Shown: positions 18,453 through 51,138 of the stretch, in pieces
How positions within the stretch are numbered: the stretch's first letter is position 1
How the letters are laid out: every line of letters starts with the position of its first letter
Assembly: GCA_017431345.1 (NCBI GenBank)
Contig: JAFRLH010000056.1
Location: 1-51,283 of the forward strand
Direction: 5' to 3'
DNA: 51,283 nucleotides
DNA from: Lachnospiraceae bacterium
GTDB taxonomy: Bacteria; Bacillota; Clostridia; Lachnospirales; Lachnospiraceae
Program-made: the position numbers and the translations under genes
Notes under the pieces: model-generated
What the model was told of the DNA's origin: nothing
The model's database searches: none
What the model saw: only the letters and a program-made list of their open reading frames with translations

Positions 18453-18818
18453 CTATCCTTTTTTCCTCAAAGCATCATTTCTGGTCAAAAGGTACAGACA
18501 ATACTGATTCATGCTGGTTCCCTCTTCTTTTGCATGTTCCGAAAGTGCGCGATGAAGGCTTTTGGGAATGCGGAGTTTGAACTGTCCGGAATAATCTTCA
18601 TCCGAAGCAGGTTCAGGAATACACATTCCGTCTTCAAAAGCCGCCGTTATCCATGCAAGCTTTGCATCCTCTGCATTTTCAAGCGCGTCACGCATAGTAC
18701 TCCCTGAAGAAATGCATCCCGGCAGATCCGGGTATCGTGCTACAAATCCGCCTTCTTCGGGGTCGGAAAGAATCTCCAGACGATAGGGGAGTTTTCTATA
18801 ATACTCAATCGTTTTCAT
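18453..18818 (-). CDS. hicB: HicB-type antitoxin
   Basis: HicB neutralises the HicA mRNA interferase and represses the hicAB promoter. The 121-residue protein has the degenerate RNase H-like HicB fold (YRLEILSDPEEGGFVARYPDLPGCISSGSTMRDALENAEDAKLAWI, about 12-57). A C-terminal ribbon-helix-helix DNA-binding segment follows (SGQFKLRIPKSLHRALSEHAKEEGTSMNQYCLYLL, about 77-111). It overlaps the 3' end of hicA by 14 nt. It appears intact although the toxin gene upstream is frameshifted. Confidence 0.9.
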   Translation of the reverse strand: MKTIEYYRKLPYRLEILSDPEEGGFVARYPDLPGCISSGSTMRDALENAEDAKLAWITAAFEDGMCIPEPASDEDYSGQFKLRIPKSLHRALSEHAKEEGTSMNQYCLYLLTRNDALRKKG

Positions 18819-19057
18819 TGCTCATTTCCTCCTCCGCAACATCCCGTACCAATTCCACATAAATCTTTCTGATCGGTTCATGTTTCGGAATCGTAATCGG
18901 ACTCCTTCCTTTTTTTCCTGAATGTATCATGACTGCTGCCGCTTCCTGGTGCGTGCATAGTATACCCATAACTTTCAAGCACTTTTCGAAGTTCATCGAA
19001 ACGCATATTTTTATCAAGCAGCAGCATTCTTGCTATCAGTTTATCCCATTTGGACAT
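18805..19057 (-). pseudogene. hicA: hicA toxin gene with a frameshift in an A7 tract
   Basis: Read from the ATG at 19057, the first 48 codons match HicA (MSKWDKLIARMLLLDKNMRF... GSGSSHDTFRK). At a run of seven A (plus-strand T7, 18910-18916) the frame shifts and ends at an early stop. The expected C-terminus (KKGRSPITIPKHEPIRKIYVELV) continues in another frame to 18805. Six A would restore one open frame of about 84 residues, the normal HicA length. The catalytic histidine in SSHDTF is kept. This may be a true loss, a reversible slippage switch or a sequencing error. Promoter and hicB are intact. Confidence 0.85.
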
Positions 19058-20971: not shown

Positions 20972-21307
20972 TCACAGCGCCTTCAGCTTCGCAAGTTCCT
21001 CGTCCATCTTGTCCAGCAAGCCGCTGTAATCGCGCTGCTCTCTTGCGCGAAGCGCTTCCGTCATCTCCGCGATCGGATCCAGCAGATTCGTCAGGGCGAC
21101 ATTTGCGAGCATCCCCTTCAGCGCATGGGCATACTCAAATCCGGCAGTCAGATCACCGGCCTCGACAGCCTCTCTCAGTTTTCCGTACTTATCGTCCTGC
21201 AGCGCCATTCCCGCCAGGCGAAGATAAAACGCTTCGTTATTCATGCATCTGCCCAGGCCTTCCTCTGTATTCGCACCAAGCTGCTTTAATGCATCAATCG
21301 TCATCAT
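20972..21307 (-). CDS. stand-alone HPt (histidine phosphotransfer) domain protein
   Basis: A 111-residue, all-helical HPt protein that would shuttle phosphoryl groups between a hybrid kinase and a response regulator. The phosphoacceptor is His61 in AHALKGMLANV, the HPt signature (H-x-L/I-K-G). No histidine kinase is encoded in the window. The nearest receiver domain is that of the 28079-31258 protein. It begins 14 nt after pilT, so it belongs to the pilus-like operon. Partnership with that receiver is only inferred. Confidence 0.85.
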   Translation of the reverse strand: MMTIDALKQLGANTEEGLGRCMNNEAFYLRLAGMALQDDKYGKLREAVEAGDLTAGFEYAHALKGMLANVALTNLLDPIAEMTEALRAREQRDYSGLLDKMDEELAKLKAL

Positions 21308-21321
21308 TCTGCTTACCCCCT

Positions 21322-22374
21322 TTATATACGTCTGCTCATGAATTCATAATTGGAACACGCCATAAGCGCTGTTTCTTTTGTGATCAGTTTCTTCTGGTAA
21401 AGCCCGATCAGGCTCTGATCCATCGTTGTCATTCCGTCCGCCGCATTCGCCTGCATCGCCGAATCCAGCTGATGCAGCTTGCCCTCACGGATCATGTTCT
21501 GGACTGCCGGATTGCTCTTCAGCACTTCGAACACGGGCATCATATGTCCATCCGTGCCGGTCACGAGCTGCTGGCACACCACGCCGCGGATCAGCTGCGC
21601 CAGCTGTCCCCTCACCTGCATCTGCTGGTTCGCCGGGAACACGTCCACGATCCGGTTGATCGTGTTCGCCGCGCTGCTCGTGTGCAGGGTGCTGAAGAGC
21701 AGCACGCCCGTCTCCGCCGCGGTAATAGCCGCCGAAATCGTCTCATAATCCCTCATCTCGCCCAGCAGGATCACATCCGGGCTCTCCCGCAGTGCCGAGC
21801 GGAGCGATTCCAGATAGCCAGGCGTGTCGATGAACACTTCCCGCTGGCTGACGATGCTCTTATTGTGGGAATGGATGTACTCGATCGGATCCTCCATGGT
21901 GATCACATGGCATTCCCTGCTCTTGTTGATCCTGTCGATCATGCAGGCGAGGGTAGTGGATTTTCCTGATCCTGCCGCGCCGGCAACGAGTACAAGGCCG
22001 GTCTTATTGTCCGCCAGTGAAAGCACGCTTTCCGGAATGCCCAGCGCTGCCGGATCCGGAATGCCGAACCGGATCACGCGGATCACGGCTGCTACCGAGC
22101 CGCGCTGCCGGAATACATTAACACGGAAACGCCCCAGTTCCCGAATGGAAAAGGAGAAATCATCATCCGTATTATTCTCATAATTCATCCTGTCGCGGCG
22201 CCCGCTTTCATAGATCTCATCGATCAGCGGAAGGATATCCGCAGGCTTCAGGAAGCCGTTCCCGTCCCGCAGCTGCATCCCCTTGATCTTATACGTCACG
22301 GGAAGTCCTGCGATCAGGAAGATGTCGGACGCACCGTTCTCAACGGCTGTCTTCAGAATCTCAAATAATGTCAT
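21322..22374 (-). CDS. pilT: PilT-type secretion/twitching ATPase
   Basis: A hexameric AAA-like ATPase of the type II/IV secretion superfamily. The 350-residue protein has the N-terminal PAS-like domain (SDIFLIAGLPVTYKIKG), Walker A GAAGSGKST (132-140), Asp box ITMEDPIEY (about 158), Walker B VILLGEMRD (201-209) and the His box STLHTSSA (about 228). AVQNMIRE (290-297) corresponds to the AIRNLIRE motif of PilT retraction ATPases. PilB assembly ATPases are longer and carry a tetracysteine zinc site, which is absent. It is the only ATPase of its operon, so it may power both directions or a non-classical process. Confidence 0.92.
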   Translation of the reverse strand: MTLFEILKTAVENGASDIFLIAGLPVTYKIKGMQLRDGNGFLKPADILPLIDEIYESGRRDRMNYENNTDDDFSFSIRELGRFRVNVFRQRGSVAAVIRVIRFGIPDPAALGIPESVLSLADNKTGLVLVAGAAGSGKSTTLACMIDRINKSRECHVITMEDPIEYIHSHNKSIVSQREVFIDTPGYLESLRSALRESPDVILLGEMRDYETISAAITAAETGVLLFSTLHTSSAANTINRIVDVFPANQQMQVRGQLAQLIRGVVCQQLVTGTDGHMMPVFEVLKSNPAVQNMIREGKLHQLDSAMQANAADGMTTMDQSLIGLYQKKLITKETALMACSNYEFMSRRI

Positions 22375-22401
22375 TGCCAGTCCCTCGTTCTCCTCCTGCC
22401 G

Positions 22402-22803
22402 TCACATGCCCGGCCAGAGATCCTCCATCGGATCGTCCTCTTCCCAGAGTTTCCTGAGCTTCCACCCGGTGATATCATAACCCGTACCGTAGTCCGCAAG
22501 GGAGATCTCCAGGGAATAACCATCCTTTTCTTTTGTATACGCTAATCCGTTTTCCGTCTGTGTACAGCCCTCCGGCAGTGCAACCAGTCCTGCACGGTAC
22601 TCTTCCGCTTCCTTCACGAACCGGCTTCCGTCCGCTTCCAGCTCATATCGGAGCTTTGTCACATCGGCATAACGTTCCGCCAGCCTGGCGTCCGCCCGCG
22701 ATGTCGCCACCGTCAGCATGGCAAGGGAAGCAAGCACGGCAGCAATGATCGTAAGAAATACCGCGATCGGTCCGAGTCTGATCTTTGTTCCCATACCGCT
22801 CAC
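22402..22803 (-). CDS. small membrane-anchored pilin-like protein
   Basis: A 133-residue protein with one N-terminal transmembrane helix (about 11-31: AVFLTIIAAVLASLAMLTVATS), a short helix and a small globular domain. No K/R-G-F-x4-E prepilin peptidase site precedes the helix, so it would stay uncleaved. I do not recognise a family. Position between pilT and another pilin-like gene suggests a minor pseudopilin or assembly factor. The longest frame starts at a GTG overlapping the previous stop (GTGA). The ATG at 22794, 8 nt after GAGG, may be the true start. Confidence 0.65.
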   Translation of the reverse strand: MSGMGTKIRLGPIAVFLTIIAAVLASLAMLTVATSRADARLAERYADVTKLRYELEADGSRFVKEAEEYRAGLVALPEGCTQTENGLAYTKEKDGYSLEISLADYGTGYDITGWKLRKLWEEDDPMEDLWPGM

Positions 22804-23240
22804 CTCTTCCTGTACGACCCTGCATGCAGGGTATAAAGAGGTTCATCCTCTCCGCCATAATATACCATGATATCGCTCTCGCTGAAAGTCCCGGTGCCGG
22901 AATCCTCATCCTTCCAGTCTATCTTCACAGTATACCTGTCTTCTGTTCCGCTTTTGTCCGTAAAATCCATTTCCAGGATCCCGGCCTGCGGATCCGCGCT
23001 TTCTACCTGTTCCATCTGTTCAAACAGGGAAAACGCCTCCTCCCTGTCTGCCGCAGCCATCCCGACCTCAGCGACATCCGAAGCCAGGCTGACCGCCTCG
23101 GTCAGATGCTTCGCGTACAGGCTCTGTCCTCTGGCGGACATAAAGGTGCCTGTTACCACGACTGTCACCATGACCATCAGCACGAACAGCCCGAGCAGTT
23201 CCACTATGAATACCGGATTTCTTGTTTTTACGCTGTTCAT
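22800..23240 (-). CDS. small membrane-anchored pilin-like protein
   Basis: A 146-residue protein with a transmembrane helix at about residues 12-32 (VELLGLFVLMVMVTVVVTGTFMSA), then a helical stretch that continues like the pilin alpha-1 helix, and a beta-rich C-terminal part (RYTVKIDWKDEDSGTGTFSESDIMVYYGG). A glutamate occurs early (E14), but no Gly-Phe cleavage site is present. Start and stop codons overlap those of both neighbours (ATGA upstream, GTGA downstream), so the proteins are made in matched amounts. Function is inferred from the operon. Confidence 0.65.
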   Translation of the reverse strand: MNSVKTRNPVFIVELLGLFVLMVMVTVVVTGTFMSARGQSLYAKHLTEAVSLASDVAEVGMAAADREEAFSLFEQMEQVESADPQAGILEMDFTDKSGTEDRYTVKIDWKDEDSGTGTFSESDIMVYYGGEDEPLYTLHAGSYRKR

Positions 23241-23689
23241 ATTGCCGCCTTTATATGCACATAAGATGTACCGAGATCCGTCCGGATCATCAGCAGATCC
23301 TTTTTTATCAGTTTCATTTCAAACGATTCCGCAGTGCCGATCAGGACCGCGTCGTCTGCCGCAGGTGCACTTCCCTCCTTCGCATAGGTTTCCATCACCT
23401 GTCCGTCCAGCCAGAAGATCTGCTGCTCGTAGCCGGTCGACCCGTCGTTGATCACCAACACCTGCACGCCGCTTCTGTCTTCCAGGATGACCCAGCTCCC
23501 TTCGGAAGCCTTGACTGCTGTGGTCACATAGGAAAGCACTGCTCTCGTATTATTGTTTCCGTCCTGAATATCCACTGAGCGCTGATAAGTGAGCGCGGAA
23601 AATACTACCAGTGTCAGGATCACCAGAAAAAGCACAGTGATCAGCACCACGGATATCAGATCTGAAAATATTTTCCTGCTCTTTGTCAT
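23237..23689 (-). CDS. membrane-anchored pilin-like protein (DUF4860-like)
   Basis: A 150-residue protein, counted from the ATG at 23689, which follows GGGGAGAG. A longer frame begins at 23731 but has no ribosome binding site. Residues about 10-32 are a transmembrane helix (LISVVLITVLFLVILTLVVFSAL). The rest is a beta-rich extracellular domain (SWVILEDRSGVQVLVINDG, QQIFWLDGQVMETYA). It resembles the DUF4860 group that I associate with clostridial pilus-like loci. That match is from memory. There is no prepilin cleavage motif. Confidence 0.6.
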   Translation of the reverse strand: MTKSRKIFSDLISVVLITVLFLVILTLVVFSALTYQRSVDIQDGNNNTRAVLSYVTTAVKASEGSWVILEDRSGVQVLVINDGSTGYEQQIFWLDGQVMETYAKEGSAPAADDAVLIGTAESFEMKLIKKDLLMIRTDLGTSYVHIKAAI

Positions 23690-23744
23690 CTCTCTCCCCG
23701 GCAGCCGTATGGCCTGCCCTCTGCCGCGCACGGGCGCAGCATCC

Positions 23745-24059
23745 TCACGATCCTCTGTAGATCACCTTCACCTCCGGCGGGAGATTTTCCGCGTAAGGGG
23801 TATAGATGATCAGGTATTCTTCCGTATTGACCGTAAGCCCGTAATTCTCCTGCAGATATTCCAGACCTTCCGGATACGCTCCTTCTATCACATAGCACTG
23901 CAGCGCCATTTTCTGCACCGTTTCGGTGATCGACCGGATACTGTCCTCGCGCTCATCCGCGCGGGCCCTTCCCGAAAACGGTACCGCTGCGATCACAATG
24001 ACCGCAACGATCACGGCCAGCACTCCTGCAGTCCATGCGGCTCTTGTTTTCTTCGTCAT
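23745..24059 (-). CDS. pilin-like protein with uncleaved N-terminus
   Basis: A 104-residue protein with an N-terminal transmembrane helix (about 10-27) after MTKKTRAAWT. The following amphipathic helix carries the type IV pilin-like pattern Y56...G60-x-Y62-P63...L66..L69 (VIEGAYPEGLEYL), which is typical right after alpha-1 in pilins and pseudopilins. As in its neighbours, the Gly|Phe cleavage site and Glu5 are lacking. It starts 16 nt after pilC and is 55 nt from the next gene. Confidence 0.7.
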   Translation of the reverse strand: MTKKTRAAWTAGVLAVIVAVIVIAAVPFSGRARADEREDSIRSITETVQKMALQCYVIEGAYPEGLEYLQENYGLTVNTEEYLIIYTPYAENLPPEVKVIYRGS

Positions 24060-24075
24060 TGCCGCACCTCCGGGA

Positions 24076-25131
24076 TCAGCCGATCGAATTCATGATGCCG
24101 ATCAGCGGGATCATCAGGCTGATGAGCATCAGGCCGATCGCGATCATCAGGACGCCGGTCAGCAGCGGCTCCATCGTGCTCGCGATCCTGCTGACATGGC
24201 TTTCGCTGCTCGACTTAAGATTTCCCAGGATCTTCTGCAGGATCGAATCCAGCATGCCGCTTCGCTCCGCCGGGATCAGCATCCTGTTGTTGACCGGATC
24301 GTAGAGCTTTTCCTTATAGGAAGCCTGCGAAAAGCTGTCCCCGGCTTCCATCGCCGCCAGCACGCGTTCGGTCTTTTCCTTCACTTTCCTTGTTTCCACG
24401 ACAGTCATGCTCTTTTTCAGCGCTTCATCCTGCATTTCCCCGCCGGATATGAACATATCAAAGCACGAAGTGAACCGGTACAGATCCAGGTCGTCAAAAA
24501 GCGCCCTGAACACAGGCAGTTTTGTCAGGATTCCCTGCACTGTCTCCTTCTTCCCGTTCTTCCACATCAGCACACCGATCAGGAGGACCGCAACGATCAC
24601 GACCATGACAGCCAGCAGGATCCTGCAGATCGTAAATGACGCGTCGATATACCGGAAGGAGGAAGAAGACAGGCTTCCTGTCAGATTGTTGTACACACCG
24701 TAGAACGCCGGAAAGACCAGCTTCAGCATGGCTGCCAGCACCGCGATCACCATGAACAGAAGGATGATCGGATAACGCACTGCCGAAGTGAACGTCTTCC
24801 GCATCGAATCCTCTGCCCGGTAATAATCACTCAGATGGAACAGGGTATTCTCCAGCTTTCCGGTGTATTCCGCCACCGAGACCATATCGACAGCATAATC
24901 CGGAAAGGCGCCGGCTTCCTTCATCGCATCGCCAAGCGGATATCCCACCGACATTTTCTCCGACATGAATGACAGCGCGCCGTAGAGCACCGCGTGATCC
25001 TTTTCTGTTTCCTCCAGAAGCAGGCTGACTGCTTCATTCGATGTGATTCCGGCTTTCAGCATCATGGCCATGTTCTCAAAGAACGAACCCATTTCCGCGT
25101 AGCCAAGCATTTTCTTTGCGTCTGCACTCAT
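24076..25131 (-). CDS. pilC: PilC/GspF-type inner membrane platform protein
   Basis: The polytopic platform that couples the cytoplasmic ATPase to pilin movement. The 351-residue protein has two GspF-type halves (FFENMAMMLKAGITSNEAVSLL at about 17-38; RFTSCFDMFISGGEMQDEALKKSM at about 217-240). Its transmembrane helices are at about 109-133 (YPIILLFMVIAVLAAMLKLVFPAFY), 165-187 (ILLAVMVVIVAVLLIGVLMW) and near the C-terminus (LTGVLMIAIGLMLISLMIPLIGIM). It is shorter than typical PilC (about 400), mainly at the N-terminus. It heads the pilus-like genes. Confidence 0.9.
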   Translation of the reverse strand: MSADAKKMLGYAEMGSFFENMAMMLKAGITSNEAVSLLLEETEKDHAVLYGALSFMSEKMSVGYPLGDAMKEAGAFPDYAVDMVSVAEYTGKLENTLFHLSDYYRAEDSMRKTFTSAVRYPIILLFMVIAVLAAMLKLVFPAFYGVYNNLTGSLSSSSFRYIDASFTICRILLAVMVVIVAVLLIGVLMWKNGKKETVQGILTKLPVFRALFDDLDLYRFTSCFDMFISGGEMQDEALKKSMTVVETRKVKEKTERVLAAMEAGDSFSQASYKEKLYDPVNNRMLIPAERSGMLDSILQKILGNLKSSSESHVSRIASTMEPLLTGVLMIAIGLMLISLMIPLIGIMNSIG

Positions 25132-25185
25132 TGTTTTTCTCCGTTTTATCTCATATTCAGGACGGCTGCGGTCTGTCTGCCGCCG

Positions 25186-26178
25186 TCAGAAAGCGTATGC
25201 CTCCATATAATTGCTGCCGTCGCCGATGAAATCACTGCCGGCGTTCCCGGCGTAGAATGTCAGATCGATGCGGTTCCAGTCGCGGTTCACCTTGAATTCC
25301 ACCAGCTGCCATCCGCCTTCCTCGGTGTAGAATTTATTCCAGGCATGATAGACATCATTCGGCGAAACATAGCCGAAAATGATCTGGGTGGGAATGCCCT
25401 GGCTGCGCAGCATCGAGGCCGCCAGGCTGGCATAGTCAAAACAGATGCCTTTCTTTGTGCTCAGGGTATCATCCGGCACCGGCAGATAGCCCGACTGGAC
25501 GGTCGCGGCTTTTTCCCGGTCGTAAGTAACGTTCTTAACAATGTAATCGTAGACCGCTGCGATGAAATCCTGTTTGCTGGCGGAGCTTTCTGCAAGCGAT
25601 CCCGCGAACTTCACGCACTCCGAATTCTGCGTATAATCCGCATACTGGTTCGGCCGCAGGAAGGGATCCAGCGGATCGGAGATCGTCACCTGCGCTTCGC
25701 ATTTGTACAGCTCGGCGTACTTCTTGTCCGTGATATTCTTCATCACGCGGAAAACATAATTTCCGTCTCCGCTCTGGAGCGGGAAGATCTGATCCTTCCC
25801 CGTGACAACAGAATAGGTCACCGTCAGATCACCCTTGATCACCTGGAATTTGATCTTTGTATCCGTCGGCTCACAGTGGATGGCAACATACCCTTTGCTG
25901 ACGGAAGACATGTCCACCATAACTTCGTCATTGCCTTCCGCGGCACTGCTGTCAAAGGAAGAGCTGCGGAACTCCGGCTCCCAGGAGCCCCCGCCGGGCA
26001 TGGCTTTGGGGACAGCATCATCCTCAACTTCTTCTGCAGCCGCAGTTTGCGCCGGGACAGACTGCTCCGGTTTCGCGGTCTGCCCGCTGCTGCCGCAGGA
26101 ACACAGTAAAAAAGCAGTCACCGCAAACAGTACTGCAAGAATATTTATTTTTAAATGCTTTTTTACTGTATTCTTCAT
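25186..26178 (-). CDS. transglutaminase-like domain lipoprotein
   Basis: A 330-residue exported lipoprotein. The signal sequence ends in a lipobox (FLLCSC, Cys28 or nearby) and is followed by a Gln/Ala-rich linker. The C-terminal half is a transglutaminase/protease-like fold: GICFDYASLAASMLRSQGIPTQIIFGYV holds the catalytic Cys, VYHAWNKFYTEEGGWQLVE the His, and NRIDLTFYAG the Asp. Such proteins crosslink or cleave proteins at the surface. It ends 54 nt before pilC and follows a terminator, so it is likely the first gene of the pilus-like operon. No convincing promoter was found before it. Confidence 0.82.
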   Translation of the reverse strand: MKNTVKKHLKINILAVLFAVTAFLLCSCGSSGQTAKPEQSVPAQTAAAEEVEDDAVPKAMPGGGSWEPEFRSSSFDSSAAEGNDEVMVDMSSVSKGYVAIHCEPTDTKIKFQVIKGDLTVTYSVVTGKDQIFPLQSGDGNYVFRVMKNITDKKYAELYKCEAQVTISDPLDPFLRPNQYADYTQNSECVKFAGSLAESSASKQDFIAAVYDYIVKNVTYDREKAATVQSGYLPVPDDTLSTKKGICFDYASLAASMLRSQGIPTQIIFGYVSPNDVYHAWNKFYTEEGGWQLVEFKVNRDWNRIDLTFYAGNAGSDFIGDGSNYMEAYAF

Positions 26179-26262
26179 TCCGGGTAAATGCGCGCTCCTC
26201 TCGCTTCAGGACTAGAATATCATATATTTTGTCTTTACGCTATGATAATATAATTTTTAAGG

Positions 26263-26289
26263 AATAAAAAACCTCTCCCGAAGGAGAGG
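26263..26289 (-). terminator. rho-independent terminator of the c-di-GMP operon
   Basis: CCTCTCC/GGAGAGG (272-278, 283-289) with a tetraloop, followed on the minus strand by TTTTTTATT. It lies 50 nt after the stop of the 26340-26810 gene and separates this operon from the transglutaminase-pilus operon. Confidence 0.92.
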
Positions 26290-26339
26290 ATCGCAGTTAT
26301 GCCTCTGCAGGCACTGCTGCTTTTATCCGGCTTCTCATT

Positions 26340-26810
26340 CTATTCCCATTCCGGCACTTTCGGTACTTCTTCCTCCGGAATATCCTCATAAATGGCGTTC
26401 TCCATCATATGCACCATCTCCCAGACCGAACGGAAATTGAGCTTGATGTTCTTCTCCGCCCATGTGATCTGTCCCTGCCAGGTGCTGTTCTGTCTGTGCT
26501 GCACCCGTACGATAAAAGTTTGCTGCTGTCCGTGCTTTTCGAGCAATTCTTCGTCTGTCATATATTTCTCCTTATATTCGGTCTGTGCTTCTTCTCTTTT
26601 TACGAACACCCTCGGCCTGTCTCCGCGCCGGGGGAACTGAATGCCGTCGAATAGTTTTTCCATCTCAAGCAGCATGCCCGTCATGCTGTCAAATCCCAAC
26701 GGTTCCGCGCTGAAACGGTGATAGAGCCTGCCGGAAAAACCGGTCTTATCCGCGCCGTCTACACAGAGCACGATGCCGTTCACTGCGCCTATATACAGAT
26801 TATTTCCCAT
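26340..26810 (-). CDS. small conserved-type protein of unknown function
   Basis: A 156-residue cytoplasmic protein I cannot assign. The N-terminus (NNLYIGAVNGIVLCVDGADKTGFSGRLYHRFSAEPLGFDSMTGMLLEMEKLFD) looks like an alpha/beta domain. The C-terminal half has RQNSTWQGQITWAEKNIKLNFRSVWEMVHMMENAI, a pattern I associate with small regulators in Lachnospiraceae, without a known role. Its start overlaps the stop of the BTAD regulator gene by one base, so it is co-translated. It is probably an accessory or output partner of that regulator. Confidence 0.7.
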   Translation of the reverse strand: MGNNLYIGAVNGIVLCVDGADKTGFSGRLYHRFSAEPLGFDSMTGMLLEMEKLFDGIQFPRRGDRPRVFVKREEAQTEYKEKYMTDEELLEKHGQQQTFIVRVQHRQNSTWQGQITWAEKNIKLNFRSVWEMVHMMENAIYEDIPEEEVPKVPEWE

Positions 26811-28036
26811 CAGACCACCGTCCCGTCCCGTGTCATAATCACACTGTTCACGAAGAATTCCACGTCTGCGCGCTGCGTCCCCGCCAGGAAATGACGGTTA
26901 ATACGCTTCTGGACGATCGTGCAGTCTTCCCGCGTTGTATTCAAAAGCAATGTCAGATACTGTCCTTTTCCATACCGGCAGACCACATCCGATCTTCTGA
27001 CCGCATGGCTGATCGCATCACCGAGCTTTGAAGACAGCTTATCCAGCGCCGGGACATCCCTCATCAGGTTCCCGTTGCGGTCCACGATCGTGCAGAGCAT
27101 GATATAAATGGACTGGCCGCCGCGCTCCAGCATCCGTTCGATCATCCGGTAGACGCCTCTGAACACCGGATAGGAACAGATATATCCGCCCGGCATATCT
27201 ACATCTGTCCCGGTCAGGGATTCCTGGATCTCATCCAGCAGCGCATACTGGTGTTCCAGCTGATTGCCCAGACGCTCCAGCAGCTCCACGGAAGTAAACG
27301 ACGGCTTAAAGCCCATTTCTTCCATGTAGTATTTCTCGGTGCTTTCATACAGCTTTCGGGCATCCTCATCCCGGCCCAGCGCAATGAGCGCTTCCATGGA
27401 GATCGCTTCCCATTCCATCAGCGGCTGGACCATTGCTGCGTGCTTCCCGAGTTCATACAGCTGATTGTAATCTTTATTCATCCTCAGCAGCACTGCCGCA
27501 TTGTGCACGCAGCGGTCGAACAGCTCCCGGTAATGTCTGTCCTCCTGCGCCACCCAGATCATGTGCGTCTGCAGCGGCAGGAATTCCCCGGTATAGATGT
27601 CCGCCGCTTTCAGATAAAGCCGCAGGCGGACATCCGGATCCTTCTCATCCTCAGCCTCGCGGAATATTCTTTCGAACTCCCAGGCGTCCACCACTACCGG
27701 GATCTCCTTTGTCCAGTAGTAGCGCCCCGCATGGCTCTCGATGAATGAAACCGCAGGCAACCCCTCTTTGGTGAGCTTTTTCTTTGTATTGTAGATAATG
27801 GTACGCAGTCCGTGGGATGCATCCTCTATATCCCGGCCTTCAAAAAGCGCCTCCAGCAGCTGCGAACGGGGGAATCCCTTCTCTCCGCTGTGAATGACCG
27901 CTTCCAGCAGCCTGACATTCTGCGAATCCCTCTCCTTCGGACCGTTCAGTACCGTCTTTCCGTTCCATGTCATGGTGAAGCCGCCCAGCGTCTCCACATA
28001 GAACACATTTTCCTTCCGGTCTTTTTTGCTGATCAT
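26810..28036 (-). CDS. BTAD/SARP-type regulator fused to a degenerate GGDEF domain with I-site
   Basis: A 408-residue transcription factor in three parts. Residues 10-108 are an OmpR/SARP-like winged helix (ETLGGFTMTWNGKTVL; the DASHGLRTIIYNTKKKL recognition helix). Residues 110-260 are a BTAD/TPR-like helical domain (DAWEFERIFREAEDE... YTGEFLP). Residues 280-400 have the GGDEF fold (YPVFRGVYRMIERML... LGDAISHAVRRSDVVCRYGKGQYLTLLL). The active-site GGDEF is GKGQY (356-360), so cyclase activity is not expected. RRSD (347-350) sits exactly five residues before it, the position of the RxxD inhibitory site that binds c-di-GMP. I infer a c-di-GMP-sensing regulator. Confidence 0.8.
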   Translation of the reverse strand: MISKKDRKENVFYVETLGGFTMTWNGKTVLNGPKERDSQNVRLLEAVIHSGEKGFPRSQLLEALFEGRDIEDASHGLRTIIYNTKKKLTKEGLPAVSFIESHAGRYYWTKEIPVVVDAWEFERIFREAEDEKDPDVRLRLYLKAADIYTGEFLPLQTHMIWVAQEDRHYRELFDRCVHNAAVLLRMNKDYNQLYELGKHAAMVQPLMEWEAISMEALIALGRDEDARKLYESTEKYYMEEMGFKPSFTSVELLERLGNQLEHQYALLDEIQESLTGTDVDMPGGYICSYPVFRGVYRMIERMLERGGQSIYIMLCTIVDRNGNLMRDVPALDKLSSKLGDAISHAVRRSDVVCRYGKGQYLTLLLNTTREDCTIVQKRINRHFLAGTQRADVEFFVNSVIMTRDGTVV

Positions 28037-28078
28037 TTCCGGTGTTTCCCTTCTCAGGCCGAGCAGCCAGTGAAATCA

Positions 28079-31000
28079 TTACTCTCCCTTGTATATTGCG
28101 CATCCGTTCCTGCCGGCTTCTTTTACATCGTAAAGCGCGGAATCCGCATCCTTGAAAATGTCTCCCTGCGGATTGTCCCTGTCGGAAAATGCCACGCCCA
28201 CGGAAAGCGATACCGGCGGCAGGTCGTCCTTCGGATTCTGCAGATTCGAATTGATCTGGCTGATCTTATTGATGACCAGCTGGCTCATGGAGCTGTTCAC
28301 ACGCGTCATGATGACCGCGAATTCGTCTCCGCCGAGCCTGCAGATCACATCGACGGAACGGAAGCTGTGCTTCAGCAGTTCCGCGACACGCTTCAGCACG
28401 CGGTCGCCGACAGCATGGCCGTAAGTATCGTTGACCTGCTTGAAATAATCGACGTCGACCAGAATCAGCGCGATATGCTCCGTGTCCACGCTCGCCATCA
28501 GCATGTCATAGGCGCCCCGGTTGAACAGGCCGGTCAGCGCGTCGTGCGAAGCAGCATGGCTCAGTTTGTCCCGTGCGTCCAGGTTTTCCTTCAGGATCGA
28601 ATTATAGGTCCTTGCAACGAAACGCAGTTCCTCCGCGCCTTCAGGGCTCATCGGCTTCTGTCCGCGCATCAATTCGACCATCTTCGTGAGCGGTCTGCGG
28701 ATCTGCTTGTTTATGAAGATGACCATAGTGAGCACAGTCAGCAGGAACACCACCGTCAGCATGGTCTGTATATTGGTAAAAACAGACATCCTGGCGGATG
28801 CGGCTTCCAGTTCCTGTCTCGAATTGCGGATCAGGGCCTGCGTACATTCGTTCACATTTTCCCTGATCCTGTCTTTGGAATGCATATAGTTGTTCCCGAA
28901 GACCATATCCTGCGCTCTCAGCTTCTTTTCTTCCGGCGTCAATGCCGTCTCCTCCGGCGTCAGCTCCACTGCTTCGATCGCCGGCGGAACATCCGTTTCC
29001 CTGTAATCGCCTGCGGCAAGCGTCAGCTTCATGGCACGGTATTCTATGTCCACCAGTTCGTTGGAAAGCTGCAGCGCCGCATTCAGGCTCCCGATCGCCT
29101 CCTTATCCTTTCCTCCAAGCAGTTCTTCCAGATCTGCCACCGCCCGGTCCCTGGTCCTGGTGACTTCGACTTCTTCAAAGAAATCATCCAGGTATTCCAC
29201 TTCGCCTGTTACCACAAAGCAGCGTACGCGGTCAGTCAGATAATCGGAACCGGACTCCATGTTGGAGGCGGCGAACTGGGCGGCAATATAGCGGTCGCTC
29301 GCATCCTCCATATTCCGGTAGCCTTTGGCAACGAACAGGTCGGAGATGAAAAGCGAAGCGGCAACAACGATCGCGACGATCATAAAAAAGCTATTGGCCG
29401 TGCGCAGATGCAGCCCGCCGGGCTTTTCTTCCGGTGCAAAGTCCTGCACCTCCGCCTCTTCCCCGTCTGCTTCCTCCTCTGCTCTGTGATCATTAACGAT
29501 ATGTTCTCCGATCTTTTTTACGGCTTCATCGACATTCTTCAGCTTTTCCGCTTTATCGGTTTCCTTCCTCTGCAGAATGAACGGTTCGAAATCTTTTGCC
29601 GGGACGGGTTTGGAGAAGAAATAACCCTGTACAAAATCGCAGCTCAGTGTCTTCAGTGTGTTGAGCTGGGCTTCGGTCTCCACGCCTTCGGCAATCACGG
29701 GAACGTGCAGATAATCCGCAATTTCCAGGATCACCTCTACCATGCGGGTGCTGCCGCCGGGCCGGAAGGCGCTCCGGACAAATTCCATATCCAGCTTCAG
29801 CGCATCCAGCGGAAGCTTGGAGAGCATGTTCAGGGAGGAATACCCCGTTCCGAAATCGTCCATTTCGATCCGGAATCCCATCTTCCTGAGTTCATGCACT
29901 TTCTCAATGATCTGCTCCGTCCCGTCCGTATAGGCGGATTCCGTGACTTCCAGCAGAAGATCGCTGCTTGTCAGGCCGAAATCACCGAGGATCGTCCCGA
30001 AAGTCTGAATCAGATCAGGATCATGCATGTCAATGCGCGATACATTGACGGAAACGGGAACGGAATAACCGAGGCGGTCTTTCCAGTCCCTGATCTGCCT
30101 TGCCGTCTCCCTCCATACATAGGTATCCAGTTCTACGATGAGCCCGCTTTTTTCAAAAAGAGGAATGAACACCCCGGGGCTGATCATGCCGAGCTCCGGA
30201 TGGATCCACCGGACCAGTGCTTCCGCGCTCGCGAGGATCGGGGTATCCGGCCGGACATCGAATTTCGGCTGATAGAATACCTGGAACTGTCTCTCCTCGA
30301 CCGCTTTCTGGAACCCTTCAATGAGCTGTTCCGCGAAAATCTCCTTCTCGTGCATCTCGCTGTCGTAGAAACCGATCGCTTTCGTTATGTTTCCTTTGAC
30401 GGTATCGGCAGCCATCTTTGCACGGTCAAAACGGCGCTCAATATCAATATTCTTGTCCGCATTGGAATAAACGCCCATGCGGATTCGCACCCTGTTGTCG
30501 GATTCCCCGTCTTCCATCAGCACGACGGAGGCCGCCTCCAGGAGCTCTTTCGGATCTTTGCGGTGCGGACAGTAGATCAGGAAAACGTCCGATTCCCTGC
30601 GGCAGACCATCCCGCCCTCTTCGGCCACCGCCTCGCGCAGATTCCCGGCGATCCTTTTGAGCACATCGTCGCCGTGCGCCTTGCCGAATCGTTCGTTGAT
30701 CGTGCGGAAATGGTTCACATCGAGCATGATGGCATCCGTTCCGACATCCGTATGGAAACGGTCGAACTGTGCAGCATAGCGGTAGAAATATTCTTTGTTA
30801 TACAGCCCTGTCAGCGGATCACGCTCCGTCTGGCTGATGATATCACGGTCTTCTGAAAGCTCGATCGTGCGCAGCACTCTCGCGAGGATGACTTCCGGCG
30901 CCGGGTACGGCTTCGGAATAAAGTCGATCGCCCCGATCTTCAGGCTTTCCACTTCCATGCTCTGTTCGGAAGTCACGACGATCACCGGGATCCTGACAAG

Positions 31001-31258
31001 ATCAACGTCGGCTCTGCAGATCTTCAGGACCTCTATCCCGTTCATCTCCGGCATCAGGATATCAAGCAGCACAAGAGAAAGCGTATGTCTGTTGGCGCGC
31101 ATCAGTTCAAGTGCTTCTTTTCCGTTTTCGGCATAGATCACTTCATATTCATTCTGCAGGATCATGCCCAGCATCTCGCGGTTGATCATTTCATCATCCG
31201 CGACGAGGATCTGCCGCCGGCCGGCGGCGGCATTGAATTTATTGATTGTATTTGCCAT
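28079..31258 (-). CDS. REC-GGDEF*-EAL-membrane sensor-GGDEF cyclic di-GMP protein
   Basis: A 1059-residue protein that can both make and degrade c-di-GMP. REC (15-135): acid pair D21/D22, phosphoacceptor D66, K116. Degenerate GGDEF (146-300): signature is ESDVF (222-226). EAL (305-565): E346, N405, E437, D467/D468, K488 and E524 all present, so it is probably an active phosphodiesterase. Then TM (about 622-643), a helical extracytoplasmic domain and TM (about 833-851). C-terminal GGDEF is intact (976-980), with RSVD I-site at 967-970. Both enzyme domains and the REC would be cytoplasmic. First gene of a three-gene operon. Confidence 0.93.
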   Translation of the reverse strand: MANTINKFNAAAGRRQILVADDEMINREMLGMILQNEYEVIYAENGKEALELMRANRHTLSLVLLDILMPEMNGIEVLKICRADVDLVRIPVIVVTSEQSMEVESLKIGAIDFIPKPYPAPEVILARVLRTIELSEDRDIISQTERDPLTGLYNKEYFYRYAAQFDRFHTDVGTDAIMLDVNHFRTINERFGKAHGDDVLKRIAGNLREAVAEEGGMVCRRESDVFLIYCPHRKDPKELLEAASVVLMEDGESDNRVRIRMGVYSNADKNIDIERRFDRAKMAADTVKGNITKAIGFYDSEMHEKEIFAEQLIEGFQKAVEERQFQVFYQPKFDVRPDTPILASAEALVRWIHPELGMISPGVFIPLFEKSGLIVELDTYVWRETARQIRDWKDRLGYSVPVSVNVSRIDMHDPDLIQTFGTILGDFGLTSSDLLLEVTESAYTDGTEQIIEKVHELRKMGFRIEMDDFGTGYSSLNMLSKLPLDALKLDMEFVRSAFRPGGSTRMVEVILEIADYLHVPVIAEGVETEAQLNTLKTLSCDFVQGYFFSKPVPAKDFEPFILQRKETDKAEKLKNVDEAVKKIGEHIVNDHRAEEEADGEEAEVQDFAPEEKPGGLHLRTANSFFMIVAIVVAASLFISDLFVAKGYRNMEDASDRYIAAQFAASNMESGSDYLTDRVRCFVVTGEVEYLDDFFEEVEVTRTRDRAVADLEELLGGKDKEAIGSLNAALQLSNELVDIEYRAMKLTLAAGDYRETDVPPAIEAVELTPEETALTPEEKKLRAQDMVFGNNYMHSKDRIRENVNECTQALIRNSRQELEAASARMSVFTNIQTMLTVVFLLTVLTMVIFINKQIRRPLTKMVELMRGQKPMSPEGAEELRFVARTYNSILKENLDARDKLSHAASHDALTGLFNRGAYDMLMASVDTEHIALILVDVDYFKQVNDTYGHAVGDRVLKRVAELLKHSFRSVDVICRLGGDEFAVIMTRVNSSMSQLVINKISQINSNLQNPKDDLPPVSLSVGVAFSDRDNPQGDIFKDADSALYDVKEAGRNGCAIYKGE

Positions 31259-40509: not shown

Positions 40510-41847
40510 TCAGGCTGCGTTGTCCAGCTCTTCCTCTACACCGGGCAGCTCAGTCTTCTCCACTCCTTCGCCGTAAATGGTCTTCCAGTCGTTCGCCATC
40601 GAAATGCCCGTCCAGCCTTCTTTTTCCACGACTTCATTGTACTCGGCAGCCTTCTCCTCGCTGCCGTATTCCCGTTCAGTATCGTCGCACACCACGAAAA
40701 AGCCCATGCCGGTATGCTCCGGGTTGCCTTCGGCATAATTGACCATCGAATAATCGCCTGAACTGTTGCCGAAAGCCAGGACCGGGCGTTTTCCGATCTC
40801 GCGGATGATACCCGCCGGTTTGCCCGACTTTCCGCATTCCACTTCGGCAAGCGGCGTGCCAAGCAGTATTTCCTCATCTTTTTCCATGTTGTACTCGTCC
40901 GCAACTTCTTCTCCCTTGCCGGAAGCGACGTAAGGCACGTCGGTCGCGATCACATGATCATACGGAATATCATACCGTTCCACGAGTGCCCGCACGACCT
41001 CGCGTTCACAGGCCGAGACCATCCACACGTCGAAATCATTGGCCTTCAGATAGCTGATCACCTCGATCATAGGTTTGTAGAACGACTGCCCGTAGGTCAT
41101 GCCGGAAAAGCCCACCACATCCGTATTGTCAGCGAAATCGACCACATAAGAACGGAATTCTTCCGGCGTCATGCCGGCAAAAGCTGACGCGACCAGATCA
41201 GCTTTGCAGAGTCCCTCAGGATGGAATGTCTCGCCTTCCGTATAAGCGTGCTCGCGTATCTGCTCCATGGAATCCCGCTCTTCCTCTGTCGCGTTATACG
41301 TCGGATCATCGAGCACACGGTACATCGTCAGGCAGTAATCGATGTAGACCGGCGCTTTCTCACAAAGGATGGTGCCGTCCATGTCAAAGACAGCGATACG
41401 GTCTGCCGGCTCAAGATAATCCGGATTTGATTTATCTGTGCAAGCGGACACAAATGCCGCCAGTTCGCCCAGCGATGCACTCTCCGGATTCCAGGAAGGG
41501 AATGTCTCTGCATAGTCGATCTCTCCGCCGGACGTTTTCCCGTCCTGCGCTGTCTCTGCGCCCTGCTCCGCAGCACCGTTTTTCAGCGCATTATAGGTTC
41601 CCGTCCCGACAATGCCGGTCTCATCCAGATCATGATCCTTCTGAAATGCTAACACAGCCTGTTCCGTTTTTCTGCCGAACACGCCGTCTGCGCGGTCATC
41701 CAGATAGCCCTGGGAGATCAGCATCTCCTGAATTTCCCGGACATCATCGCCCCGTTTTCCCCTCTTCAGCAGTTCCATGGCAAAGCAGTTCGCCGTCATG
41801 GAAAAGATGATCACAGCGCTGACAGCAATCGTAAATATCTTCTTCAT
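40510..41847 (-). CDS. secreted peptidoglycan-binding domain/HAD phosphatase fusion
   Basis: An exported 445-residue protein. The ATG at 41847 follows GGAGGAGGAG; a longer frame begins at 41934. Residues 1-23 form a signal peptide (ending CFA). Residues about 25-92 are a PG_binding_1 domain (LKRGKRGDDVREIQEMLISQGYLDDRADGVFGRKTEQAVLAFQKDHDLD). The rest is a HAD hydrolase, with FDMDGTIL (catalytic Asp pair, about 159-166), VWMVSACEREVV (second motif, about 283) and FGNSSGDYSM (metal motif, about 384). A wall-attached phosphatase is inferred. The substrate is unknown. Confidence 0.85.
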   Translation of the reverse strand: MKKIFTIAVSAVIIFSMTANCFAMELLKRGKRGDDVREIQEMLISQGYLDDRADGVFGRKTEQAVLAFQKDHDLDETGIVGTGTYNALKNGAAEQGAETAQDGKTSGGEIDYAETFPSWNPESASLGELAAFVSACTDKSNPDYLEPADRIAVFDMDGTILCEKAPVYIDYCLTMYRVLDDPTYNATEEERDSMEQIREHAYTEGETFHPEGLCKADLVASAFAGMTPEEFRSYVVDFADNTDVVGFSGMTYGQSFYKPMIEVISYLKANDFDVWMVSACEREVVRALVERYDIPYDHVIATDVPYVASGKGEEVADEYNMEKDEEILLGTPLAEVECGKSGKPAGIIREIGKRPVLAFGNSSGDYSMVNYAEGNPEHTGMGFFVVCDDTEREYGSEEKAAEYNEVVEKEGWTGISMANDWKTIYGEGVEKTELPGVEEELDNAA

Positions 41848-41914
41848 TTCTCCTCCTCCGGGGGACGATTTTTGTGTAACCATCCCCAGTGTCTTCCTTT
41901 TTATCCGATTATAA

Positions 41915-41953
41915 AACAAAGGGGACGGCTGCACAAGAACCGTCCCCTTTGTT
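41915..41953. terminator. REP-like hairpin, probable terminator
   Basis: AACAAAGGGGACGG (915-928) and CCGTCCCCTTTGTT (940-953) form a perfect 14-bp stem with an 11-nt loop, followed on the minus strand by TTTATAATC. It lies 26 nt after the MBL-rubredoxin stop and shares the GGGGACGG core of the dispersed family. Confidence 0.75.
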
Positions 41954-49194: not shown

Positions 49195-51138
49195 TTACTT
49201 CTTTATCTTCATGGTCTTTTTCTTAAATCCTGTTTTTCCGGAAAACAGCTTTTTATACTTTTTCAGTTTCGCTTTAGGCACTTTGATCACTGCTTTCTTA
49301 TGAATGCTCTTGATCGCATTCTTCCCGACTGATCTCAGTTTTGAAGATTTAATAACGATCTTCTTCAGCTTTTTATCGCCGGAAAATGCCGCCTTGCCGA
49401 TCTTCGTGACATTCTTTCCGATCGTTACAGTCTTCAGCTTCTTAAGTCCTTTGCAGGCATTCGCGGAAACAGCAGTCACTTTGTATTTTTTGCCATTCGC
49501 AGATACCGTTGCGGGGATCGTCAGTTTCGTGATATTCTTTTTCTTCGGTTTTGTCAGCACTGCCGTGGAACCGGAAAGTTTGTAAACACCGCCGCCTTTC
49601 GTCACAGTCGATACTGTCTTTGTTTCTGTATCTTTGGTACCCGTTTTGTCAGTTGTATTCGTTTTATCAGCTGTATTCGTTTTATTAGTTGTATTCGTTT
49701 TATTAGTTGTATTCGTTTTGTCAGTTGTATTCGTTTTCTTACCCGTGACCGTAATTGTGGTCGCTGCGATCACTTTTTTCTTTGTACTGTCGGCATATAG
49801 GGTGACTGTCGCCTTTCCGGGATTGACGCCCTTCACCGTAACGGTAAAGAAATAGGTGACGGCGTCGGCTAAGATCATATTGCCGCCCCGTGCGATCGAC
49901 ACTACTTTCACGACAGATTCGTCAGAGGATGCTGCGGCAAATGCAGTTTCCACCAGCGCGCCTTTTACGGTAGCTTCGCCCCGACATTCCAGCTGTGCCC
50001 CGGCTGCCACTGTAAAGCCTGTTGCAAAAGAATTTTTCGTTTCCGTTTTCTCCGGTTCGACCGGATCTTCTCCTGTAACGGTAAACGTTATTTTGCTGAC
50101 GACTCTTGTCTTTGTACTGTCCGTGTATACGGTAACAACTGCCTGCCCTGTATGAATGCCCTTCACGCCGAGAACATAATAATACGTAGCGCCATTGGCA
50201 TAAACGACGCTCCCGTTTCGTGTCAGTGATGTAATCTGAAGAATTGATTCATCGGAAGAATCCGCGTAAAAATAACCATCCAGCGATTTTACATCCAGGG
50301 TAGTCTGAAGCTGGCAGTCCCTTTTTTCCCCGACGTCCACCGTAAATCCGGTCTCCGCTGTTTCTTTAAAGTTCAATTTAGCCTTCACAGCCGCTTCGCT
50401 GGCTGCATCCAGCGGACAGCCTTCAAACGCGTCTTCCGCTATACTTTTCTTTCCCAGACTGTCGGGCAGCGTTACTTTCGTCAGACTTTTGCACCCCCAG
50501 AAAGCAGAGGCATTGATCTTTGTGACACCTTCCGGAATTGTGACGGCCTTCAGCGCGCCGCAGTTTGAAAAGCAATCCTGCGGAATCTCTGTGATGCCGC
50601 CGGAGATCACTATATTGTTCAACAGTTCACAGCAGTTAAACGCATAGCTTCCCATGCTCGTCACACTGCCGGGCATCACAACGGATGTCAGTTTTTTACA
50701 GAATGCAAACGCTCCGGTCGCGATCGTTTTAACAGACGAAGGGATGGTATAGGCCCTGGCCTTTCCGGGCGGGCAGGAGACCAGCGTCGTTTTATCCTTA
50801 TTGAACAGAACGCCGTCTGCTGAGGCATAATTGCTGTTCGAAGACGCCACATTGAAACTCTCACAATTGCCGCAGCCAATGAATAAGGCTTCCTCTATGG
50901 ATGTTACGCCTTCCGGGATCGATACTTTTATGATACTTCCTTCATTCCATGATCCTTTCGTAAGTTTTCCGGTCCCGCTGATCTGAAGCGTTCCGTCATC
51001 AGAAAGGATCCACGTCAGATTATCCCCGCAGCTTCCTGAAGATTCCGCGAGTACATTGCCGGGACAGAACACTGCTGCTGTCATGCAAAAGACTGTGATC
51101 AGAAGCACTCTGACCGCGTTTTGAAATGTCTTGTTCAT
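49195..51138 (-). CDS. BspA-like leucine-rich repeat surface protein
   Basis: A 647-residue exported protein. Residues 1-32 are a signal peptide (FCMTAAVFCPGNVLA). Residues about 40-245 and the C-terminal 130 are BspA/LRR_5 repeats (ISGTGKL, VSIPEGVTSIEEALFIGCGN, AVTIPEGVTKINASAFWGCKSLTKVTLPDSL). The middle has two Ig-like/cadherin-like modules (about 265-355 and 370-465) and then a Thr/Asn/Lys linker with NKTNTT repeats (about 468-500). Such proteins mediate adhesion to host or other cells. The Lys-rich C-terminus (KKLFSGKTGFKKKTMKIKK) has no sortase site. RBS AGGAAGGAG is strong. Confidence 0.9.
   Translation of the reverse strand: MNKTFQNAVRVLLITVFCMTAAVFCPGNVLAESSGSCGDNLTWILSDDGTLQISGTGKLTKGSWNEGSIIKVSIPEGVTSIEEALFIGCGNCESFNVASSNSNYASADGVLFNKDKTTLVSCPPGKARAYTIPSSVKTIATGAFAFCKKLTSVVMPGSVTSMGSYAFNCCELLNNIVISGGITEIPQDCFSNCGALKAVTIPEGVTKINASAFWGCKSLTKVTLPDSLGKKSIAEDAFEGCPLDAASEAAVKAKLNFKETAETGFTVDVGEKRDCQLQTTLDVKSLDGYFYADSSDESILQITSLTRNGSVVYANGATYYYVLGVKGIHTGQAVVTVYTDSTKTRVVSKITFTVTGEDPVEPEKTETKNSFATGFTVAAGAQLECRGEATVKGALVETAFAAASSDESVVKVVSIARGGNMILADAVTYFFTVTVKGVNPGKATVTLYADSTKKKVIAATTITVTGKKTNTTDKTNTTNKTNTTNKTNTADKTNTTDKTGTKDTETKTVSTVTKGGGVYKLSGSTAVLTKPKKKNITKLTIPATVSANGKKYKVTAVSANACKGLKKLKTVTIGKNVTKIGKAAFSGDKKLKKIVIKSSKLRSVGKNAIKSIHKKAVIKVPKAKLKKYKKLFSGKTGFKKKTMKIKK
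49642..49740. repeat. 18-bp in-frame repeat inside the BspA-like gene
   Basis: CGTTTT-type units begin at 49642, 49660, 49678, 49696, 49714 and 49732, an exact 18-bp period. They encode the TNTTNK/TNTTDK linker. Copy number could vary by slippage without changing the frame, altering the linker length. Confidence 0.9.

Follow-up and report, generated by a model that had tools for sequence, protein, structure and literature searches.

Textbooks present PilT as the retraction motor that counteracts PilB in type IV pili, and the cleavage of prepilins as the step that opens assembly. In the type IVa pili of monoderms such as Clostridium perfringens, Clostridium difficile and Streptococcus sanguinis, a PilT-family motor and a PilC/GspF platform are combined with prepilin-derived subunits, and all three recur in the locus considered here, which lies in a stretch of 51,283 nucleotides of Lachnospiraceae DNA (the window). 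Unlike these pili, the conserved module at this locus – a transglutaminase lipoprotein, a short PilC/GspF protein, four bitopic proteins (psi1 to psi4) and PilT – has no PilB or PilD and apparently no PilM, has mostly lost its cleavage sites and has an added transglutaminase gene. The type II secretion pseudopilus, or minor-pilin tip complex (GspG, GspI-J-K like), resembles the module in placing a few differing pilin-like subunits on a GspF platform (presumably, judging from motifs, psi1 corresponds to G, psi2 to J, psi3 to I and psi4 to K), but in the module PilT replaces GspE, the operon encodes no secretin and the sites are lost.

Three further systems invite comparison. For archaeal type IV pili, one report mentions a genomic link of pilus genes with transglutaminase-family surface peptidases of unknown role (PMC4858521), which is the same gene link as in the module, with other motors and in other clades. 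Gram-positive tad-like loci are likewise pilus-type loci in which, according to their description, no protein has an apparent prepilin site, although these loci hold tadA, tadC, tadV and a peptidase gene where the module has PilT and GspF (PMC3244431). Lastly, C. difficile type IV pili are reported to be under c-di-GMP control (PMC6916266, PMC6200980), whereas a c-di-GMP riboswitch was rejected as the control element here, since there is no Rfam match at gathering score within the window and none among the Rfam matches of five module loci. A literature search found no published description of a PilT-only module.

Organisation of the two operons

All genes of both operons are on the minus strand, as are the other features given below, and they lie where the first-pass annotation places them. 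Its division of the locus into two same-strand operons parted by a terminator agrees with both the gene positions and the hairpin. This intrinsic terminator (26263..26289) consists of the stem CCTCTCC-TTCG-GGAGAGG followed by six T (26289-26272, minus strand), with a folding energy of -12.6 kcal/mol (z -2.2; an equal fold in 6 of 200 shuffles). A promoter-like conserved block 5' of the second operon (26213..26241), common to G003 and G010, occurs only once in the genome even when three mismatches are allowed; a regulon acting through it was rejected for this reason, and the block cannot be tied to the BTAD regulator of the first operon.

The content proposed for the second operon is borne out. 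Its first gene (25186..26178) encodes a transglutaminase-like protein (Pfam, 4.3e-23), with a lipobox read from the sequence and an intact Cys-His-Asp triad (C246, H278, D305) that is invariant in 21 of 21 aligned proteins. It is followed by the platform protein (24076..25131), which is short (351 aa) and matches T2SSF at 2.7e-32 (16 members were aligned), then by psi1 to psi4. The PilT-family ATPase (21322..22374) scores 408 bits against TIGR01420, for a cut-off of 319, and its catalytic residues are invariant across 14 aligned sequences. The last gene (20972..21307) encodes an HPt protein (Pfam Hpt, 1.5e-8) in which the motif of the phosphorylatable His reads HALKG.

A widespread module and its subunits

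The module is common in gut Clostridia: searching the order with a profile of psi1 recovers it from 93 of 294 genomes and 48 of 145 genera. Its genes recur jointly in 80 fetched loci (a set that excludes the incomplete L041, L047, L048, L055, L056, L058 and L081), and this makes the arrangement more than a product of chance. Scans were confined to the best 80 of 587 relatives. The transglutaminase gene is found in 70 of these 80 loci and in none of 54 canonical pilus loci, a control that is not taxon-matched and includes the partial module L088, whose PilT groups next to those of the module. Module PilTs form a single group of 67 rows (SH-aLRT 99) in a tree that leaves out the PilTs of genus g52, whose PilT genes lie some 40 kb away from psi1 or on a different contig. 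As for other neighbours, neither sortases (2/40 module versus 0/54 canonical loci, p 0.18) nor ECF factors (7/40 versus 9/54) differ significantly, and LPxTG surface proteins were rejected as a general partner (3/80 loci when a strict pattern is applied).

This is no ordinary pilus operon, and the lineage mostly does without PilB and PilD. PilB is absent from the operon of the window, no PilB label is found in L057-L083 and a PilM query has no match in L038-L083, while PilD is encoded in 0/80 module loci versus 23/54 canonical ones. At the level of genomes, where the presence of PilB, PilD, BTAD and the small partner protein was read by eye from match lists, PilB is missing from 40 of the 65 with psi1. 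Among 60 near-complete genomes taken as the window's lineage, 38 are without PilB and none of the 38 has a PilD-size peptidase listed. Defined as an A24 protein of at least 235 aa (a threshold set after the lists, which extend to about 1e-6, had been inspected), such a peptidase is found in 1 of 40 PilB-less psi1-positive genomes and in 24 of 25 with PilB. The A24 frames of the PilB-less G314, G057 and G283 measure 214, 222 and 226 aa.

One could imagine that the module is an accessory of its host's canonical type IV pilus, borrowing PilB and PilD in trans, as the 25 of 65 hosts with PilB would permit, including the window's own genome, which has a canonical locus with PilB- and PilD-type genes on C65. 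We find this quite improbable, given the 40 hosts that have no PilB to lend, the missing cleavage sites and a module endowed with its own platform protein and its own group of motors.

The four subunits are psi1 (23745..24059), which carries a C-Y-x2-E-G-x-Y-P motif, psi2 (23237..23689), psi3 (22800..23240) and psi4 (22402..22794), with starts corrected by reading the sequence to 22794 for psi4 and, probably, 23689 for psi2. Only psi2 has a Pfam match in the window (DUF4860, 5.3e-9), and 16 psi3 and 16 psi1 members gave no convincing one. A PDB sequence search yielded nothing meaningful for psi1, psi2 and psi4; for psi3, the two best matches are type IV pilins, at E values of only 0.034 and 0.059. 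Profiles match 73 canonical prepilins to very different extents (psi3 96%, psi2 77%, psi1 49%, psi4 10%).

The term peptidase-site-free, used for the operon in the first-pass annotation, proves apt within the window: psi1 and psi2 have no G/A-x4-E, psi3 has a Pro at -1 (P-VFIVE) and psi4 a Gly followed by a Pro. A test for class III signal peptides across the window's lineage found a site in 0/73 psi1, 0/73 psi2 and, in its x4-E form, 0/72 psi4, versus 12/72 psi3 with Gly at -1 and thus the full G|xxxxE, while Glu+5 of psi3 is kept in 79/79 rows and the Gly of psi4 in 77/77 aligned rows (two rows being gapped). In the sister group (G072 and G093, assigned by genus), psi3 has a textbook prepilin site in 7/7 and psi2 a site in 3/7. 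These textbook sites, together with the graded loss in the window's lineage, show that psi proteins have their origin in type IV prepilins. With a homologous motor, a homologous platform and such subunits, the module is by descent part of the type IV filament superfamily.

Two other readings bear on these data. The first is that of a decaying pilus locus with no function, in keeping with the loss of PilB, PilD and cleavage sites. It was rejected and is extremely improbable, since the gene set is maintained across families and conservation extends to invariant residues in PilT, the transglutaminase, psi3 (Glu) and psi4 (Gly). The second is a true extracellular filament, with some psi proteins cut by another peptidase (an A24 enzyme of TadV size, or a signal peptidase of type I/SipW-like kind) and with PilT as the one motor for both extension and retraction. 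There is a precedent for the latter in the Vibrio cholerae MSHA pilus, whose extension is reported to need PilT (PMC9815625). An A24 match of some size is found in 39/40 PilB-less psi1-positive genomes and could, which counts against the view that psi proteins are uncut, act on psi3 (with its 12 retained sites) or psi4 (with its conserved Gly). However, psi1 and psi2 are uniformly without a site, G054 has no A24 match at all in a genome search and SipW-like genes are rare near the module (5/80 loci), all of which makes a true filament unlikely, if worth keeping in mind.

The c-di-GMP genes and their association with the module

The first operon starts with a 1059-aa protein (28079..31258) that was first described as a dual GGDEF/EAL membrane protein. 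Pfam confirms its domains (Response_reg, that is REC, EAL and two GGDEF stretches), but one GGDEF is degenerate, the order read from the sequence being REC, degenerate GGDEF, EAL, two hydrophobic transmembrane helices and an intact GGDEF with an I-site; the protein is a putative c-di-GMP enzyme. In L057, its two halves are separate genes. Next comes a putative transcription factor (26810..28036) with a BTAD domain (1.7e-8, over the cut-off), a Trans_reg_C match below the cut-off (18.1 bits for 26.2) and a weak C-terminal GGDEF match (1.4e-4). Its proposed role as a c-di-GMP sensor fits with what alignment reveals: R347, D350 and Q359 are invariant and, in 20/20 rows, the RxxD I-site is kept and the catalytic GGDEF motif lost. 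It thus looks like a c-di-GMP receptor with a dead GGDEF and an intact I-site, similar to known degenerate-GGDEF I-site effectors, except that here the domain is joined to a BTAD transcription factor, a fusion absent from the literature matches listed. The small partner protein (26340..26810), which has no Pfam family, is a tandem of two related stretches of about 60 residues around a WQG motif; single-domain copies also occur. It is found in 39 of 65 psi1-positive genomes, never without BTAD there.

The expectation that both operons would occur jointly in relatives holds in part. BTAD is present in 43/65 psi1-positive versus 1/15 psi1-negative genomes (p 2.6e-5, not corrected for phylogeny; the 15 are listed genomes and were not randomly drawn, and loci adjoining the module contributed to the models of BTAD and the small protein). 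In 18 of the 43, no more than 10 kb separates it from the module; 9/18 genera have such a co-located case, and genus g59 supplies nine of the 18 co-located genomes. In Pseudobutyrivibrio ruminis AD2017 (L079), a cultured commensal like the module host [Clostridium] asparagiforme DSM 15981 (L068), the genes for BTAD and the small protein come immediately before the module. In the other 25 genomes the two are apart, which in drafts can mean on different contigs; separation in most relatives is the outcome that the first-pass annotation named as refuting its proposal.

The c-di-GMP operon might be a mere neighbour exerting no control, as would befit these 25 genomes, the terminator that separates the operons and the existence of modules with no such neighbour, many having an ECF/anti-sigma pair or no regulator within the stretch. 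Against this, BTAD and psi1 co-occur at the genome level and the genes re-associate in differing arrangements: L042, L152 and L057 again have BTAD, the small protein and REC-GGDEF-EAL near the module, together with HPt (absent from the L057 stretch), and c-di-GMP association concerns 10/40 one-per-genus module loci versus 1/54 canonical ones (p 7e-4, with a control that is not taxon-matched). Neither GGDEF/EAL proteins as such (6/40 versus 2/54, p 0.07) nor HPt (1/40 versus 0/54) are significantly enriched; in 5/8 loci with HPt, a REC or GGDEF/EAL protein is encoded as well. Association of c-di-GMP genes with the module is real in several genera, and simple neighbourhood has, in our opinion, perhaps one chance in a few of being the whole story.

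Proposed mode of action and its implications

With a "retraction" motor only and pilin-like proteins mostly devoid of a cutting site, the module probably does not build an ordinary pilus. The reading that we favour, which we consider just about probable, is that 26178-21322 encodes a derived system within the type IV filament superfamily that has PilT as sole dedicated motor, lacks a dedicated prepilin peptidase and works as a non-filamentous membrane-anchored complex, probably under c-di-GMP control here. The PilB- and PilD-type genes elsewhere in the window's genome and the hosts in which BTAD and module are apart count against it. Most likely a short, pseudopilus-like complex would form, in which psi1-psi4 would stay membrane-bound for want of leader removal, PilC would serve as platform and PilT would turn or pull the whole. 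The lipoprotein transglutaminase may act at the cell exterior, with either the complex or surface proteins as its target, and the complex, rather than producing a long pilus, would transmit force to surface proteins, or display or remodel them. As for control, we infer that HPt may phosphorylate the REC domain of the GGDEF/EAL protein, upon which c-di-GMP would shift, be read by the BTAD regulator at its I-site and lead it to act, in one direction or the other, on the promoter before 26178.

Extending this beyond the window is more tentative, with a somewhat less than even prospect of being right: a widespread envelope machine of Clostridia, in which PilT as sole motor and uncut, membrane-held pilin relatives, derived from a type IV pilus, would generate force without forming a filament, in conjunction with an extracellular transglutaminase and, in many hosts, switched by a c-di-GMP-sensing BTAD regulator. 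Because Pfam covers only one of the four psi proteins of the window, and that one as a DUF, surveys that depend on PilB or on a prepilin site would overlook the module. If confirmed, the rules of PilB antagonism and prepilin cleavage could be dropped for a conserved system found in about one-third of the sampled genomes of the order, most near-complete hosts of which have neither PilB nor a PilD-size peptidase that could be found. The roles of PilT and pilin-like proteins without an extension motor would become testable, and the BTAD regulator offers a possible handle to switch the module.

Gene layout and distribution of the module

Both operons lie on the minus strand. The first runs from a REC-GGDEF-EAL-TM-GGDEF protein through a BTAD regulator to a small protein and is followed by a terminator; the second starts with a transglutaminase lipoprotein and continues with PilC/GspF, four small bitopic proteins (psi1–psi4), the PilT-family ATPase and, last, HPt. 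The first-pass annotation had described two same-strand operons parted by a terminator, and that is what was found. A conserved block 5' of the transglutaminase gene (26241-26213), single-copy in the window genome, is common to a second genome (G003), where the terminator is present too, and to a third (G010), although the G010 sequence further upstream differs; on this sequence conservation, the second operon seems likely to have its own promoter.

Elsewhere in the window, (i) at 18453-19017 a HicB-like antitoxin gene, with a small ORF upstream (18805-19017) that may be its toxin partner, adjoins a GlnRS-like gene, (ii) a single protein combines a peptidoglycan-binding domain with a haloacid-dehalogenase-like domain (40510-41934), (iii) a BspA-type leucine-rich-repeat protein is a possible surface protein (49195-51138) and (iv) a 1014-aa open frame (27812-30856, plus strand) runs opposite the GGDEF/EAL gene. 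Such long antisense frames abound in the window and look mechanical in origin.

The module, i.e. the second operon from transglutaminase to PilT, is widespread. Across 61 genomes searched, further genera and families proved to have GspF and PilT spaced ~2.7 kb from each other, and the loci fetched for these pairs carry the same gene set. When the loci of the best 80 of 587 confirmed relatives from a PilT-alignment scan (L057-L136) were sorted by models built from alignments, they split sharply into module and PilB-type loci: in 27 (L057-L083) module genes are present and the fetched stretch shows no PilB label, and 41 of the other 53 (L084-L136) have a PilB label. Hosts among the matches listed include [Clostridium] asparagiforme DSM 15981, Pseudobutyrivibrio ruminis AD2017 and MAGs filed as Blautia, Mogibacterium, Oscillospiraceae and Erysipelotrichaceae. 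Within the order, psi1 profile matches occur in 93 of 294 genomes and 48 of 145 genera (requested completeness at least 90%). Gene order varies slightly, the transglutaminase gene being 3' of PilT in L050 and on the opposite strand in L054 and L059; the fetched stretch has no PilT in L137, L141, L142 and L147. A 131-ATPase tree places the 67 module PilTs together in a single group (SH-aLRT 99), outside which sits the PilT from the canonical pilus locus of the window genome. That locus (L037, G000:C65:1-20000) carries genes of PilB, PilT, PilC and PilD type, and its prepilins show sites of the G|FTLAE type.

No description of the module was found in titles and abstract openings of the papers listed from the open-access literature on monoderm pili, PilT, PilB-less pili, transglutaminase or BTAD with GGDEF, nor in passages of PMC3244431, PMC6668835 and PMC6916266; the literature search found no paper on DUF4860, and those that it gave on Lachnospiraceae type IV pili (judged by title) or on PilT in Roseburia dealt with other topics.

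Pilin-like proteins and their cleavage sites

In alignments, the psi1 motif Y-x2-E-G-x-Y-P is invariant (16/16), a psi3 Glu is kept in 79/79 rows and a psi4 Gly in 77/77 aligned rows (two further rows are gapped). In canonical type IV pili, Glu+5 is important for assembly. On sequence grounds, the origin of the psi proteins is visible in a sister group of seven loci (L159-L163, L165, L172), in which the ATPase gene comes first and whose ATPases form one group (support 100). There, textbook prepilin sites are found in psi3 (7/7, e.g. G|FTLIE), G|[AS][TS]S[VI]L in psi4 (6/7, the start of the seventh not being seen) and G|xxLxEL in psi2 (3/7), and psi1 has no prepilin site in the seven loci, the one A-x4-E match (L165) lying outside the membrane helix. 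One sister-group genome (G057, locus L159) has a module relative without PilB.

In the window's lineage (the remaining 73 loci), psi1 and psi2 each have a cleavage site in 0/73. In psi3 the -1 residue is Gly in 12/72 on a pattern search (13 if the alignment column is read) and Ala in 2; psi4 retains Gly without an acidic +5. The window itself has Pro at -1 in psi3 and Pro at +1 in psi4, which bears out the earlier description of the operon as peptidase-site-free. Among canonical loci, 28/54 yielded 75 ORFs with strict prepilin sites. Profile comparison with 73 canonical prepilins gave 96% for psi3, 77% for psi2, 49% for psi1 and 10% for psi4. Prepilin ancestry is thus firm for psi3; for psi2 and psi4 it is well supported by way of the sister group, and for psi1 it rests on topology and motif.

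The link to c-di-GMP

At its C-terminus the BTAD regulator has a GGDEF-like domain that has lost its catalytic motif (GKGQY in the window), with Gln at the Glu position and the I-site RxxD kept, both in 20/20. The neighbouring small protein (26810-26340) seems, from its sequence, to be a duplicated ~60-residue WQG domain; single-domain relatives (66-90 aa) adjoin the full-length form in L144, L146, L152 and L154. The pair lies directly 3' of PilT in G005, G009 and L057 and directly 5' of the transglutaminase gene in L079 and L139, and in L152 the module is flanked by BTAD, small protein, HPt and REC-GGDEF-EAL.

BTAD is beside the module in 10/40 one-per-genus loci vs 1/54 canonical loci (p 7e-4), and the small protein in 8/40 vs 0/54; enrichment was not significant for other GGDEF/EAL proteins (6/40 vs 2/54, p 0.07) or HPt (1/40 vs 0/54). 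At genome level, full-length BTAD is present in 43/65 genomes with a psi1 match vs 1/15 without (small protein 39/65 vs 1/15, never without BTAD in either set), but no more than 18 of the 43 have it within 10 kb of psi1, these cases covering 9/18 genera and nine of the 18 coming from a single genus. Within the genus of the window, 4/6 genomes with the module have BTAD and 0/5 without. G003 has both on one contig, ~11.5 kb of surface-protein genes apart; at L038 9351-18193, between c-di-GMP genes and module, surface-type proteins of 404 and 2468 aa are encoded (DUF7601, FctA).

An anti-sigma gene with an ECF factor accompanies nine of 80 modules. In six of the nine (L061, L066, L070, L142, L150, L152) the pair, just 5' of the module, stands beside the gene of a membrane protein whose GGDEF-like domain is degenerate (GRNGGNKF or similar); this may be a second switch of the c-di-GMP type. 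The kept I-site, co-occurrence and separate promoter argue for putative BTAD action on the module upon a c-di-GMP change; predicted phosphotransfer from HPt to REC is plausible.

PilB, peptidase and a possible mechanism

Among 65 genomes with a psi1 match (at least 98% complete), PilB is present in 25 (at least 516 bits to the GspE model) and absent in 40 (at most 143 bits, i.e. PilT level). Among the matches listed, an A24 prepilin peptidase frame of at least 235 aa occurs in 24/25 PilB-bearing genomes, the gene being split across two frames in G037, and in 1/40 PilB-less ones (G093). In 39 of these 40 an A24 protein was matched, in most cases one of TadV size; the exception is G054, which is rated 100% complete, gives no A24 match and has only one ATPase match. 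With five sister-group genomes removed, PilB is absent in 38/60 genomes and 14/28 genera, and a PilD-size A24 was found in none of the 38 (among the matches listed). Of 15 genomes without psi1, six have PilB and seven a PilD-size A24. The window genome has PilB- and PilD-type genes, both at the separate locus L037.

The transglutaminase, whose Cys246, His278 and Asp305 are invariant (21/21), is encoded in 70/80 module loci vs 0/54 canonical loci. A strong association, of unknown role, between archaeal pilus genes and transglutaminase-family surface peptidases is reported in PMC4858521. Two kinds of gene near the module hint at surface proteins as its clients: sortase-like genes (7/80 vs 0/54, not significant by one-per-genus count), which in L043 and L164 sit between those for transglutaminase and platform, and genes for SipW-like signal peptidases (5/80 vs 0/54). 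The window's genus includes two genomes in which SipW-like genes flank the operon on both sides (L042: 8034-8549, 17225-17812, 18202-18810; L041: 10905-11519, 11890-12501).

PilT, PilC and pilin relatives that stay uncut in the membrane could assemble into a short complex, rotated or pulled by PilT, with the transglutaminase outside. The main rival is a filament built by PilT, since PilT supports extension of one known pilus (PMC9815625). Set against the type IVa pilus, the module has motor and platform and lacks PilB, PilD and, for the most part, signal sites; it is therefore a variant within the type IV filament kind, set apart from the type IVa pilus.
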